Part shown: positions 2,951-12,788 of the stretch, piece after piece
Layout: each line of letters opens with the position of its first letter
Numbering within the stretch: the stretch's first letter is position 1
IMG/VR virus record: IMGVR_UViG_3300017917_002394
Location: 1 to 29,016 of that record
Direction: 5' to 3' (one strand)
DNA: 29,016 bases
Source: a virus
Notes under the pieces: model-generated
Told to the model about the DNA's origin: nothing
Database searches by the model: none
The model's input: the letters and a program-made list of their open reading frames with translations, nothing else
Made by a program: the position numbers and the translations under genes

Positions 2951-3891
2951 AAACAGCATTGATTACAGGTGTCTCAGGATACCTTGGTTCGCATTTGGCG
3001 AAAGCACTAAAACAATCTGGTTGGAAAGTTGTTGGTGTGGATATTCAACATACCACAAATCAATATGTCGACCTTTTTCATCCATGCAATGTAAATGATG
3101 CAGAATCACTACATCTTCTTTTTGATAGAGTGAATATTGATGTGGTGTTTCATTTGGCAGGAAGAATTGAGGTTGGTGAATCAGTAAAATATCCAACAGT
3201 CTTTTGGCATAACAACACCGCAGGAACAAACACACTATTGGATGTGATGACCTATTGGGGTGTAAGAAACATTGTATATTCTTCAACGGCAGGTGTTTAC
3301 AGTTCTAAAGCCGAAGCATTGAAAGAAACCGATGAAGTGAATCCGATGAACAACCCATACGCAGGAAGTAAGTATGCTGCGGAGTTGGCAATTCGTCAAT
3401 CTGGTATCAATCATATCATCTTTAGATATTTTAATCTCGCAGGTGCTGACCCTGAGAACGAAATGGGTGAGTGCCATGAACCAGAGACACATCTGATTCC
3501 ACGAATTCTCCAAAATCTAAATAATTTCACTATTTACGGGAATGACTACGATACTCCTGATGGTACTTGTGTGAGAGATTATGTTCATGTCAGCGATATT
3601 GCTGATGCACATGTTCTTGCTGCTAAGTATTTGACAGAGGGTGGTGATTCTCAGATTCTTAATTTAGGAACGGGCAGAGGTTATTCGGTACAAGATATTG
3701 TTAACCTGGTTAAGAAAATAACCGGGGAAGAAGTTAAATATCGGTATGAGTCCAGACGGGCAGGTGACCCTCCGTTTCTGTTTGCCGATGTTTCTTTAGC
3801 CGAAAAAGTATTGACTTACCGACCGAAACATGATATAGTCTCCATTATTCAGACCGCATATAATTGGCAAACAAGAAATGACAATCCCTAA
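2947..3891 (+). CDS. galE: UDP-glucose 4-epimerase-like NAD-dependent sugar epimerase
   Basis: A 314-residue extended short-chain dehydrogenase/reductase. The NAD-binding motif TGVSGYLGSH is at residues 7-16, the S-S-T strand at 112-114 and the catalytic Y138-x3-K142. The segment around GTCVRDYVHVSDIADAH is typical of GalE (UDP-glucose/UDP-galactose interconversion). The frame extends upstream to 2878, but the ATG at 2947 gives the family N-terminus and makes a four-base overlap (ATGA) with the glycosyltransferase stop. The pair probably supplies and then transfers a hexose in one pathway. The exact substrate (Glc/Gal, GlcNAc/GalNAc or an acid sugar) cannot be told from sequence alone. Confidence 0.88.
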   Translation: MKTALITGVSGYLGSHLAKALKQSGWKVVGVDIQHTTNQYVDLFHPCNVNDAESLHLLFDRVNIDVVFHLAGRIEVGESVKYPTVFWHNNTAGTNTLLDVMTYWGVRNIVYSSTAGVYSSKAEALKETDEVNPMNNPYAGSKYAAELAIRQSGINHIIFRYFNLAGADPENEMGECHEPETHLIPRILQNLNNFTIYGNDYDTPDGTCVRDYVHVSDIADAHVLAAKYLTEGGDSQILNLGTGRGYSVQDIVNLVKKITGEEVKYRYESRRAGDPPFLFADVSLAEKVLTYRPKHDIVSIIQTAYNWQTRNDNP

Positions 3892-4447
3892 AATCCATGA
3901 CATGGCGCTTGGCGCCGATGACCTCATTGGTCTTGGTTTACTCAAAAGTCACATCCATGTTCTGCATGGCGATATCGATGAAGATAATATCGCTGATGCA
4001 ATCAAGTGGGTTATCTTTGAGAACACCGATGACCGAGAAAAAGTCCTAACTCTTTATATCAATTCAACAGGCGGAAGTCTGTGTGATGCATTTGCATTGA
4101 TTGATATTATGCGTAACTCAAAACATCCTATTCAAACCATTGGCATGGGTAGTGTTATGTCGGCAGCATTTATGATTTTTGTTGCTGGCACAAAAGGCCA
4201 TAGGTATCTCGCAAAGAACACCAGTATTCTTTGTCACCAATTTTCAGAAAACACCGAAGGTAAGTATCACGACCTTAAAGCTTCTTTGAAAGAAAGTGAG
4301 AACATGAATTCTCGTATGGTTGAACTTATCAAAGAATGTACCGATTTATCCACTAGAGTTATTAAGACCAAGCTTCTGCCGCCAAGTGATGTTTGGTTGA
4401 CTGTGGATGAAGCACTAGAACTTGGCATTGCAGACCATATCCTTTGA
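3878..4447 (+). CDS. clpP: ClpP-like ATP-dependent protease subunit (S14 serine peptidase)
   Basis: A 189-residue homologue of the Clp protease core subunit. Aligned with bacterial ClpP by eye, YINSTGGS (60-67) is the substrate-binding strand, S95 in GSVMSAA is the nucleophile, H120 in ILCHQ the base, and D171 in PPSDVWLTVDEAL the third triad residue, so it should be active. The C-terminal L-G-I-A-D-H-I-L matches the ClpP G-L-I-D-x-I-L region. ClpP forms a double-heptamer barrel fed by ClpX or ClpA unfoldases; no unfoldase is in the window, so it would use a host one. It overlaps the epimerase end by 14 bases. An alternative start is the ATG at 3902. A head-maturation role is possible, but T4-like phages normally use a different protease (gp21) for that. 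Confidence 0.85.
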   Translation: MTIPKIHDMALGADDLIGLGLLKSHIHVLHGDIDEDNIADAIKWVIFENTDDREKVLTLYINSTGGSLCDAFALIDIMRNSKHPIQTIGMGSVMSAAFMIFVAGTKGHRYLAKNTSILCHQFSENTEGKYHDLKASLKESENMNSRMVELIKECTDLSTRVIKTKLLPPSDVWLTVDEALELGIADHIL

Positions 4448-10892: not shown

Positions 10893-11564
10893 GTGAATTT
10901 CAACCATGTAAAACTAGATGCCTTAAATTTTGAACTAGAATCTGTAACTACCGAGAGTGGTCGAACATATAAAACACCGAGTGGTAAAGAGTATCCATCT
11001 ATCACTACGGTACTATCTTCATACAACAAGAAAGCGCTTTTCGAATGGCGTCAAAGAGTTGGTGAAGAGGAGGCGAATCGGGTAGCTCGTAAAGCATCCA
11101 ATCGTGGCACCAAGTTGCACAATACTGTTGAAAATTATTTGCTCAACGAAATGTCACCTGTTCAAATGCATACGATGATGCCAGATACTAAGGAGTTATT
11201 CCTTAAACTAAAACCTTTTTTAGATACACATGTAAGCAACATTTATGGCATCGAACAACCCTTGTTTAGTGACGAACTACGCCTCGCAGGAAGGTGTGAT
11301 TGCATCGGTGAATGGGATGGAAAAATCTCAATCATTGACTGGAAGACCGCAAATCGTCCCAAAGAAAAGTCCCAAATTGCCAATTATTTTATGCAGGCCT
11401 CAGCATATGCAGAAATGTTCGGAGAACGAACAGGACTCACCATCGACCAAATCGTAATCGCCATCGCAGTTGAAAATGAAGAACCCCAAATTTTCATTGA
11501 AGAAAAGTCTAAATATCTACCTGAATTAAAAAATTATATCGGCAAGTATTGGGATAAAGCTTGA
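10893..11564 (+). CDS. PD-(D/E)XK (RecB/Cas4-type) exonuclease
   Basis: A 223-residue nuclease of the RecB/MGME1-like branch. Motifs in order: S-I-T-T-V-L-S (36-42), R71-G-T-x2-H76 in the first helix, E121 in G-I-E-Q, D136 in G-R-C-D, D149-W-K151 (the D/E-x-K element) and Q168-x3-Y in the last helix. Such enzymes cut single-stranded DNA ends and serve phage recombination or host DNA breakdown. No Cys cluster is present, so it is not an iron-sulfur Cas4. The start is a GTG at 10893 behind AGGATAA. Its TGA stop (11562-11564) lies inside the -35 box of the tmRNA promoter. Confidence 0.85.
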   Translation: MNFNHVKLDALNFELESVTTESGRTYKTPSGKEYPSITTVLSSYNKKALFEWRQRVGEEEANRVARKASNRGTKLHNTVENYLLNEMSPVQMHTMMPDTKELFLKLKPFLDTHVSNIYGIEQPLFSDELRLAGRCDCIGEWDGKISIIDWKTANRPKEKSQIANYFMQASAYAEMFGERTGLTIDQIVIAIAVENEEPQIFIEEKSKYLPELKNYIGKYWDKA

Positions 11565-11589
11565 CTTTTTCTTTGATACAAGATATAAT
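11561..11589 (+). promoter_or_regulatory. Sigma70-type promoter for the tmRNA
   Basis: TTGACT at 11561-11566, 17 bases, TATAAT at 11584-11589. The stop codon of the nuclease gene overlaps the -35 box. The predicted start near 11596 coincides with the expected 5' end of the tmRNA acceptor piece. Confidence 0.85.
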
Positions 11590-11596
11590 TATCAGT

Positions 11597-11657
11597 ATTC
11601 GTTGAAGTTGTTTGAAAGTTGTTGTGGACGGCGGTGCAAATCCGCCCACCTCCACCA
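11597..11657 (+). ncRNA. tmRNA acceptor piece (tRNA-like 3' half)
   Basis: T-stem GGCGG (11630-11634) and CCGCC (11642-11646), a 7-base loop TGCAAAT, acceptor strand CACCTCC (11647-11653), discriminator A11654 and CCA. The loop has G where most T-loops have U/pseudouridine at position 55. Bases 11608-11624 form the 3' side of P2. The 5' end is set by the promoter and is approximate. Confidence 0.85.
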
Positions 11658-11745
11658 AAAGCACATTAGTATGAAGGTCAGGAAATACTGTATTGTGAGT
11701 TCCTAGGACTCTTGTTCACCGCAATACCTTGAATGTGCTTTTGGT
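11658..11745 (+). other. Excised spacer of the permuted tmRNA precursor
   Basis: In the precursor the acceptor stem continues as a perfect helix: 11647-11667 pairs with 11732-11752 over 21 bp with one G-U. Within the spacer GTATTGTG (11690-11697) pairs with CGCAATAC (11720-11727), and GAGTTC pairs with GGACTC inside that. Cuts at 11657/11658 and 11745/11746 would release the two mature pieces, probably by RNase P at the 5' side and 3' trimming enzymes at the CCA side. Confidence 0.8.
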
Positions 11746-11907
11746 GGGGGTGTTATAGATTCGACATGGCAATAATTAAAACAATGGAGAATCGTCAGAC
11801 AAGGCGTAAAAATCAAAATAAAATAAATGCAAATGACGAAAGTTATGCATTAGCGGCCTAAACGCTGCTTAGGGTTTCGGTGAGTTCCTCGTAACAGAAT
11901 ACTCACC
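11746..11907 (+). ncRNA. tmRNA coding piece
   Basis: Begins GGGGGTG, then the D-loop analogue with GATTCGAC, the P2 5' strand, an A-rich single-stranded run before the resume codon, the tag frame (11829-11861) and a P5-like hairpin in which AGCGGC (11852-11857) pairs with GCTGCT (11864-11869). A last hairpin GGTGAGT (11879-11885) with ACTCACC (11901-11907) probably marks the 3' end. Confidence 0.85.
11829..11861 (+). other. tmRNA proteolysis tag reading frame (ANDESYALAA)
   Basis: Resume codon GCA at 11829, then ten sense codons in all giving ANDESYALAA, with TAA at 11859-11861. The C-terminal A-L-A-A is the ClpX/ClpA recognition end in E. coli. Only residue 5 (S for N) differs from the E. 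coli tag. Confidence 0.92.
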
Positions 11908-11923
11908 ACTTATAAGGATTTCT

Positions 11924-12091
11924 ATGAATCACAAAAAAAAGAAACCTAAAAATGCTCGTGCAGGTTGTTTGATGTGTAAACCAAACAAGATGAACGGATG
12001 GAATAAAGACAAACTTGGACACACCGGGTTTGGTAAGTTAAAAGATGTGGCACATTCTAAGGATGATTTGAAAAGTGAAAGTTTATATTAA
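11924..12091 (+). CDS. Small basic Cys-containing protein
   Basis: A 55-residue basic protein directly behind the tmRNA. The N-terminus is KKKKPKN, then C15-L-M-C18-K-P-N-K-M-N-G, a motif (C-x2-C-K-P-x-K-x-N-G) that I recognise from tiny phage and cyanobacterial proteins. Two cysteines are too few for a zinc site by themselves unless it dimerises. AAGGA lies upstream of the ATG. The 3' end overlaps the next gene by 17 bases. Its place next to the tmRNA may be chance; ribosome or RNA binding is only a guess. Confidence 0.65.
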   Translation: MNHKKKKPKNARAGCLMCKPNKMNGWNKDKLGHTGFGKLKDVAHSKDDLKSESLY

Positions 12092-12788
12092 CAAGTATAA
12101 AGACCATTGGATTAGTCCTTACACAATCATCGACTATGCCTTCTTTTGGACTGATTGGTCAAAATGCAGTCGTAAGAAAGGTATCCCAAGCCTTGAAGAT
12201 GAAAAAAACTATGTTGAACATCCTGAGTGGGTTGAAAAGGCAACAGATTATTTGACACCAATTAGTCGTGCAATTCAATGGGTGTGGGATAAAGTTGACC
12301 GCAAGATTGACTATGTGAAAATTGACCGTTGGGATACTTGGTCGATGGACCACACATTGTCTTACATCATTCTTCCAATGTTAAAACAGTTGAAGGAAGA
12401 TAAACATGGCGCACCTTTTGTTGATGATGAAGATGTTCCAGAAGAATTGAAATCAACATCGGCACCACCAAAAGAAAATGAATATGACACCGATGCGAAC
12501 CATTTCAAAAGATGGGATTATGTCCTTGATGAAATGATTTTTGCATTTGAACACAAGGTCGATGATTCTTGGGAAGATGCGTACCGTTCAGGTAACATTG
12601 ACACTATTTGGGTACCTGTTGATGCAAAAGGTAATGAAGTTCCAAAAGGTGAACACAAATATTACCAGATGAAAAATGGACCTAATCACACCTACGAATG
12701 TGACTATGATGCGATTCAAAAAGTCCATGATAGAATGAAGAATGGATTCCGTCTATTTGGTAAGTATTATGAAGCATTGTGGGATTAA
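12075..12788 (+). CDS. Conserved phage hypothetical protein
   Basis: A 237-residue acidic protein. Recognisable conserved blocks are D-x-W-D-T-W-S-M-D-H-T-L-S-Y-I-I-L-P-M-L-K-Q-L-K (around 100), H-G-A-P-F-V-D-D-E-D-V-P (around 128), R-W-D-Y-V-L-D-E-M-I-F-A-F-E (around 163) and the terminal G-F-R-L-F-G-K-Y-Y-E-A-L-W-D. I know these blocks from hypothetical proteins of very many phages, where the protein is nearly always present and uncharacterised. Translation starts at a GTG (12075) inside the preceding gene; no nearby in-frame ATG fits better. A late-promoter-like element follows its stop. Confidence 0.8.
   Translation: MKVYINKYKDHWISPYTIIDYAFFWTDWSKCSRKKGIPSLEDEKNYVEHPEWVEKATDYLTPISRAIQWVWDKVDRKIDYVKIDRWDTWSMDHTLSYIILPMLKQLKEDKHGAPFVDDEDVPEELKSTSAPPKENEYDTDANHFKRWDYVLDEMIFAFEHKVDDSWEDAYRSGNIDTIWVPVDAKGNEVPKGEHKYYQMKNGPNHTYECDYDAIQKVHDRMKNGFRLFGKYYEALWD

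Follow-up and report, generated by a model that had tools for sequence, protein, structure and literature searches.

A two-piece, circularly permuted tmRNA gene from a T4-like phage, and probable small protein genes in the intervening segments of its relatives

Introduction

The window analysed here is the whole of a 29,016-base metagenomic virus record, itself a fragment, in which a preliminary description made from the letters alone had placed a circularly permuted two-piece tmRNA gene at 11561–11910. The locus raises the questions of whether this is a genuine gene of that kind, what a phage could do with it, and how it stands to the permuted tmRNAs of bacteria and of other phages.

Results

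Identification of the Gene and Its Parts

The region was searched with cmscan against Rfam, and two covariance models matched it well over their gathering cut-offs: RF01850 (beta_tmRNA) at 11559–11931 with 125.4 bits (cut-off 84; E 3.9e-38), and RF04321 (tmRNA_permuted) at 11597–11861 with 124.7 bits (cut-off 47; E 2.9e-24). ARAGORN, which is independent of Rfam, reported a permuted tmRNA at 11565–11952 with the tag ANDESYALAA*. At 11559–11931 the contig, which is that of a T4-like phage, carries a two-piece tmRNA gene in circularly permuted form, and the Infernal check proposed in the preliminary description bears out its central claim. The parts of the gene are the following:

11561–11589, + strand: sigma-70-type promoter, TTGACT-17-TATAAT, near-consensus (11/12)
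11597–11657, + strand: acceptor piece (P2 5' strand, T-arm, acceptor 3' strand, ACCA), from the RF04321/RF01850 alignment with coordinates checked; its 5' end is inferred from the promoter
11630–11646, + strand: T-arm GGCGG-TGCAAAT-CCGCC, read from the sequence
11647–11653, + strand: acceptor 3' strand CACCTCC, read from the sequence
11654–11657, + strand: ACCA, with the encoded CCA, read from the sequence
11658–11745, + strand: intervening segment of 88 nt, predicted to be excised (inverted repeat, fold, covariation in phages)
11746–11931, + strand: coding piece (acceptor 5' strand, TTCGAC region, P2 3' strand, tag, 3' hairpin), from RF01850 to 11931
11746–11752, + strand: acceptor 5' strand GGGGGTG, G1 at 11746, forming 7 bp with CACCTCC including G3-U70
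11829–11861, + strand: tag reading frame ANDESYALAA-stop (GCA to TAA), from ARAGORN
11879–11907, + strand: 3' hairpin of the coding piece, read from the sequence

The order of the halves given in the preliminary description, with the acceptor half and its CCA running to 11657 in front of the coding half from 11746, agreed with the coordinates and with the covariance model alignment, in which the P2 pairs said to join the two halves were also present. The 7-bp acceptor stem with G3-U70, the tag with its stop codon and the promoter directly in front were likewise found as described. The RNA has alanine identity, and its tag is of the proteolysis type. Its extent required a small correction: the end at 11910 was close, and the transcribed gene probably reaches about 11907–11931. 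The expected transcription start from the promoter is the first base of P2. The T-loop is TGCAAAT instead of TTCRANT. As a separate observation, both in the window (11734–11861, with an ATG near 11734) and in the phage relative L002 no stop codon interrupts the tag's frame upstream over much of the coding piece, probably by chance.

The surroundings of the gene are those of a T4-like phage:

3878–4447: ClpP-family protein (PF00574, E 4.8e-34)
10893–11564, + strand: exonuclease, PD-(D/E)XK, phrog_298 (PHROG E 8.4e-71; PF12705)
11924–12091, + strand: conserved phage gene of 55 aa (MNHKKKKPKNARAG...), of no known family, a relative of which is encoded at 20 viral loci
12075–12788, + strand: phrog_11543 gene of unknown function (PHROG E 1.3e-44)

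The stop codon of the exonuclease gene overlaps the -35 box of the tmRNA promoter, and the 55-aa gene had no Pfam match. T4-like families assigned by PHROG in the contig include exonucleases, ssDNA-binding protein, baseplate hub and tail tube cap, the last having its best match among named phages in Pelagibacter phage HTVC008M (27% identity).

Conservation in Related Viral Contigs

Relatives were fetched by a protein search with phrog_11543, which yielded 80 viral contigs. RF04321 scored over its cut-off in 38 of them (28/50 plus 10/30), and where the upstream DNA of a close relative reached far enough, its tmRNA mostly ended 100–354 nt before phrog_11543. Pattern scans added further viral copies, and after ARAGORN and deduplication 180 distinct viral and 15 distinct bacterial permuted tmRNAs were obtained; the search patterns bias both sets, which also hold a few false or misfiled rows (the bacterial loci L195 and L414 are counted among the viral set), so that counts drawn from them are descriptive.

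Within the viral set, G3-U70 was kept in 177/180 sequences and ACCA in 177/180, while the tag began with AND in 146/180 and ended in LAA in 159/180. The acceptor stems GGGGGTG/CACCTCC, GGGCCTG/CAGGTCC, GGGCCAG/CTGGTCC, GGGGATG/CATCTCC and GGGGCTG/CAGCTCC differ by compensatory changes. Since the acceptor finder rewards pairing, a subset was repeated with motif anchoring that makes no use of acceptor pairing; all seven acceptor positions were paired in 17/17 distinct sequences, with changes at pairs 4, 5 and 6. Promoters scoring 11 or 12 of 12 preceded the gene in 46/176 phage relatives, against about 0.1% of shuffled upstream regions, and the -10 box of these strong promoters mostly lay 42–46 nt before the T-arm (40 in the window). 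These results indicated that related viral contigs commonly carry the gene and that it is subject to selection there.

Some variants were also observed. The T-loop of the window recurred in 9/180 distinct viral tmRNAs, and L109, L121 and L544 carry GGCAGTA or a similar T-loop rather than TTCRANT (GGCAGTA in 7/180). Long predicted tags, of 28 and 21 residues and ending in ALAA or AVAA, were seen in the viral permuted tmRNAs L366/L426 and L242.

A Helix Extending the Acceptor Stem

The window contains an inverted repeat of 21 nt (11647–11667/11732–11752; 95% complementary), and the resulting hairpin has a fold z of -6.4. The ends of the segment, 11658–11667 together with ACCA on one side and 11732–11745 on the other, pair as a helix of 14 bp that prolongs the acceptor stem. 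Across 174 distinct viral tmRNAs, positions 5 to 12 (A73 = 0) were paired in 89–97%, with several Watson-Crick types, and sliding the partner usually reduced the pairing, although A-/T-rich positions near the stem stayed high in some slides. A helix of about 14 bp extending the acceptor stem therefore covaries in phages, and it is present likewise in 14 bacterial copies, which led us to discard the idea that it is a phage speciality. The sole other weak matches near the gene came from microRNA models, which do no more than mirror the hairpin.

At the junction with ACCA, a C74xA(-2) mismatch was found in 161/174 viral and 9/14 bacterial copies (for example at the L082–L121, L239–L358 and L391–L402 junctions). 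The window has G(-2), with TGGT instead of TGAT, so that pairing runs fully through ACCA and the C74 mismatch is absent; four bacterial permuted tmRNAs are likewise fully paired. E. coli RNase P recognises unpaired RCCA, and the absent mismatch might slow RNase P on the RNA of the window. Segment length was 24–42 nt in 14/15 bacterial copies (the remaining one doubtful, at 5), 88 nt in the window, and mostly 44–248 nt, up to 342, in phages. The window's segment showed no convincing homology to any other.

Proposed Working of the Gene and Alternatives

We consider it very probable, from the parts present in the sequence, that the gene is a functional phage copy of a two-piece betaproteobacterial-type tmRNA that would act with the SmpB, RNase P and alanyl-tRNA synthetase of the host. 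Host RNA polymerase would start at the promoter 11561–11589 and make a single precursor beginning at P2, in which the halves of the tRNA-like domain would pair and the intervening segment would fold back as a hairpin that stacks on the acceptor stem. Host RNase P would then cut at 11746 and 3' processing would occur at 11657, removing the segment and leaving two RNAs that would stay joined through the acceptor stem and P2. After charging by the host alanyl-tRNA synthetase through G3-U70, host SmpB would deliver the tmRNA to ribosomes stalled on broken mRNAs, which should be common during infection; the ribosome would switch to the tag ANDESYALAA and end at UAA, and the tagged fragment would pass to ClpXP. 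We infer transcription and its timing, processing, charging and rescue; for rescue activity the sequence gives the parts and the known biology of permuted tmRNA suggests their use.

No phage-encoded SmpB was found in the records of 19 phage relatives, in a search that detected its positive controls. A phage SmpB as partner was accordingly rejected, and the host protein would be needed. Tagged proteins are usually degraded by ClpXP. The ClpP-family protein at 3878–4447 may be a candidate head maturation protease, the class in which PHROG places it, and a link to tag degradation is possible. Comparison with host tags, as the preliminary description had suggested, found the tag pattern in many Beta- and Gammaproteobacterial genomes, for which reason naming a host by this pattern was rejected. 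The exact 33-base tag sequence had no match in viral contigs. Searched as DNA, the tmRNA region found no counterpart among named phages, which left no host identified by this route.

Alternatively, the RNA could serve as a decoy, drawing off SmpB and ribosomes of the host and so blocking its trans-translation. Precedent exists in the tag-less tmRNA of mycobacteriophage DS6A, as reported in PMC11915505, and the fully paired intervening segment of the window could mean that its RNA is poorly processed. Against this, the window has an unbroken tag frame with its LAA end, the CCA and G3-U70, all of them conserved in other phages as well, whereas a degradable tag is something that a decoy could do without; this reading is improbable. 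Another origin to be weighed is the accidental acquisition of a host ssrA fragment that now drifts without function, given that ssrA is a common integration site and that temperate phages carry ssrA ends (PMC9004378). Against this, the gene is complete and stands in a T4-like structural and replication context, its structure is kept by compensatory change in many phages, and it is far from any bacterial copy found. The nearest phage relative, L002, had identities of 97% and 87% in the two parts of the coding half, whereas the best Burkholderiales tmRNAs reached at most 69% identity with that of the window (in a sample of 300 Burkholderiales genomes, 17 scored over the permuted-tmRNA cut-off, of which ARAGORN called the last three one-piece). 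Because of this difference we regard the gene as phage-adapted rather than a recent host fragment, and an accidental fragment as very unlikely. Misassembly or host DNA in the contig, conceivable for a metagenomic fragment of 29,016 bases, is scarcely credible, the order tmRNA–55-aa gene–phrog_11543 being seen again in independent contigs, which already refute it, and L002 being 97% identical across the 3' half.

Probable Protein Genes Nested in the Segments of Relatives

The intervening segments of the relatives contained a further feature. In 31 of the 167 viral segments tested, a reading frame of 22–101 codons filled most of the segment. Most of these frames ended exactly at the TGA/TAA of the TGAT/TAAT before G1 and most others about 12 nt earlier, with the Shine-Dalgarno sequence in one arm of the helix and the stop codon in or beside the other. 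Terminal frames with a Shine-Dalgarno-like site were compared with shuffles that kept the arms: nine had at least 25 codons (0.76 expected) and six at least 40 codons (0.00 expected). A Shine-Dalgarno-like site was present in the 5' arm of 21/31 segments with nested frames and of 4/136 others (Fisher p 1.7e-15, a guide only, the related sequences not being independent).

The 73-codon frame of L480, inside a tmRNA of 86.9 bits, encodes a PGDYG-domain protein (PF14083, 27.8 bits against a cut-off of 27; phrog_419, E 9.7e-12). A frame of 101 codons was conserved in three viral contigs, L543, L544 and L545 (3001–3303), at 76–88% identity, with differences of 14/14/39 and 5/4/21 by codon position, mostly at the third; a scan of IMG/VR for it returned only these three loci. 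Around this frame RF04321 gave 101 bits in L543 and 84.9 bits in L545, and L544 had a weaker match, to the coding half only, with the acceptor half visible by eye. Many short nested frames resemble single membrane-spanning peptides, among them a 22-codon membrane-like family (MKPYE...) that occurs in ten contigs and lies inside the tmRNA segment in those examined. Further nested-gene loci include L464, L452, L440, L086, L002, L008, L116, L275 and others. In the window's own segment the longest frame had 11 codons (p 0.29), and a nested protein gene in the window was rejected on this basis.

Taken together, these data suggest as a likely reading that the excised segment is, in this phage group, a site at which small protein genes are gained and lost, about 30 relatives having one there; that translation of the frame and folding or maturation of the tmRNA should be mutually exclusive on a single transcript; and that the window would hold a gene-less version of the site. 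More speculatively, the placing of the ribosome-binding site in one arm and of the stop codon in or near the other should set translation of the nested gene against folding of the precursor. This competition could tie tmRNA maturation to ribosome supply, or the site could simply be a compact place for a small gene.

No description of protein genes nested in tmRNA segments was found in the literature searched, which mostly did not include subscription journals. If the reading is true, protein genes within the removed segment of a tmRNA precursor would be a new gene arrangement, with a testable link between free ribosomes, small-protein translation and maturation of a rescue RNA, and this wider result outweighs the window's gene in importance. 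The greater length of the segments in phages, compared with those in bacteria, may be due to such nested genes. Annotation pipelines will miss such small genes and may split such tmRNAs.

Comparison With Known Systems

The preliminary description had held a split tmRNA to be undescribed in T4-like phages. This does not stand: a two-piece ssrA in the T4-like myophage Melnitz, which infects OM43 (Methylophilales), was published in 2022, together with 53 two-piece tmRNAs among 18,146 public phage genomes and permuted tmRNAs in 17/47 related contigs (PMC9004378). A tmRNA database of 2025, in which RF04321 was built, lists 79 phage tmRNA sequences (PMC11915505). We also confirmed a permuted tmRNA in the pelagiphages Mosig and HTVC008M. 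The window shares with Melnitz and the pelagimyophages a T4-like myophage context and a permuted two-piece tmRNA that lies behind an early-type promoter. The Melnitz tmRNA was grouped with alphaproteobacterial tmRNAs (PMC9004378), whereas the best model for the window is betaproteobacterial. It was also linked to a glutamine riboswitch (PMC9004378); in the window no riboswitch model, glnA-type included, matched at E<=1 in 11500–12000, and a Melnitz-like riboswitch near the gene was rejected.

Mycobacteriophage DS6A likewise carries a tmRNA; as cited in PMC11915505, that RNA has no tag frame and inhibits the host tmRNA, whereas the tag of the window is intact. With the bacterial permuted tmRNAs of RF01850 and RF04321 the gene shares its order of parts, the tRNA-like domain, the tag and the segment helix, and its promoter falls inside the beta_tmRNA model. 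It differs from them in being phage-borne and in its segment of 88 nt, against 24–42 nt (14/15). Two-piece tmRNAs being already known from phages, the window's gene is a further case, of betaproteobacterial type.
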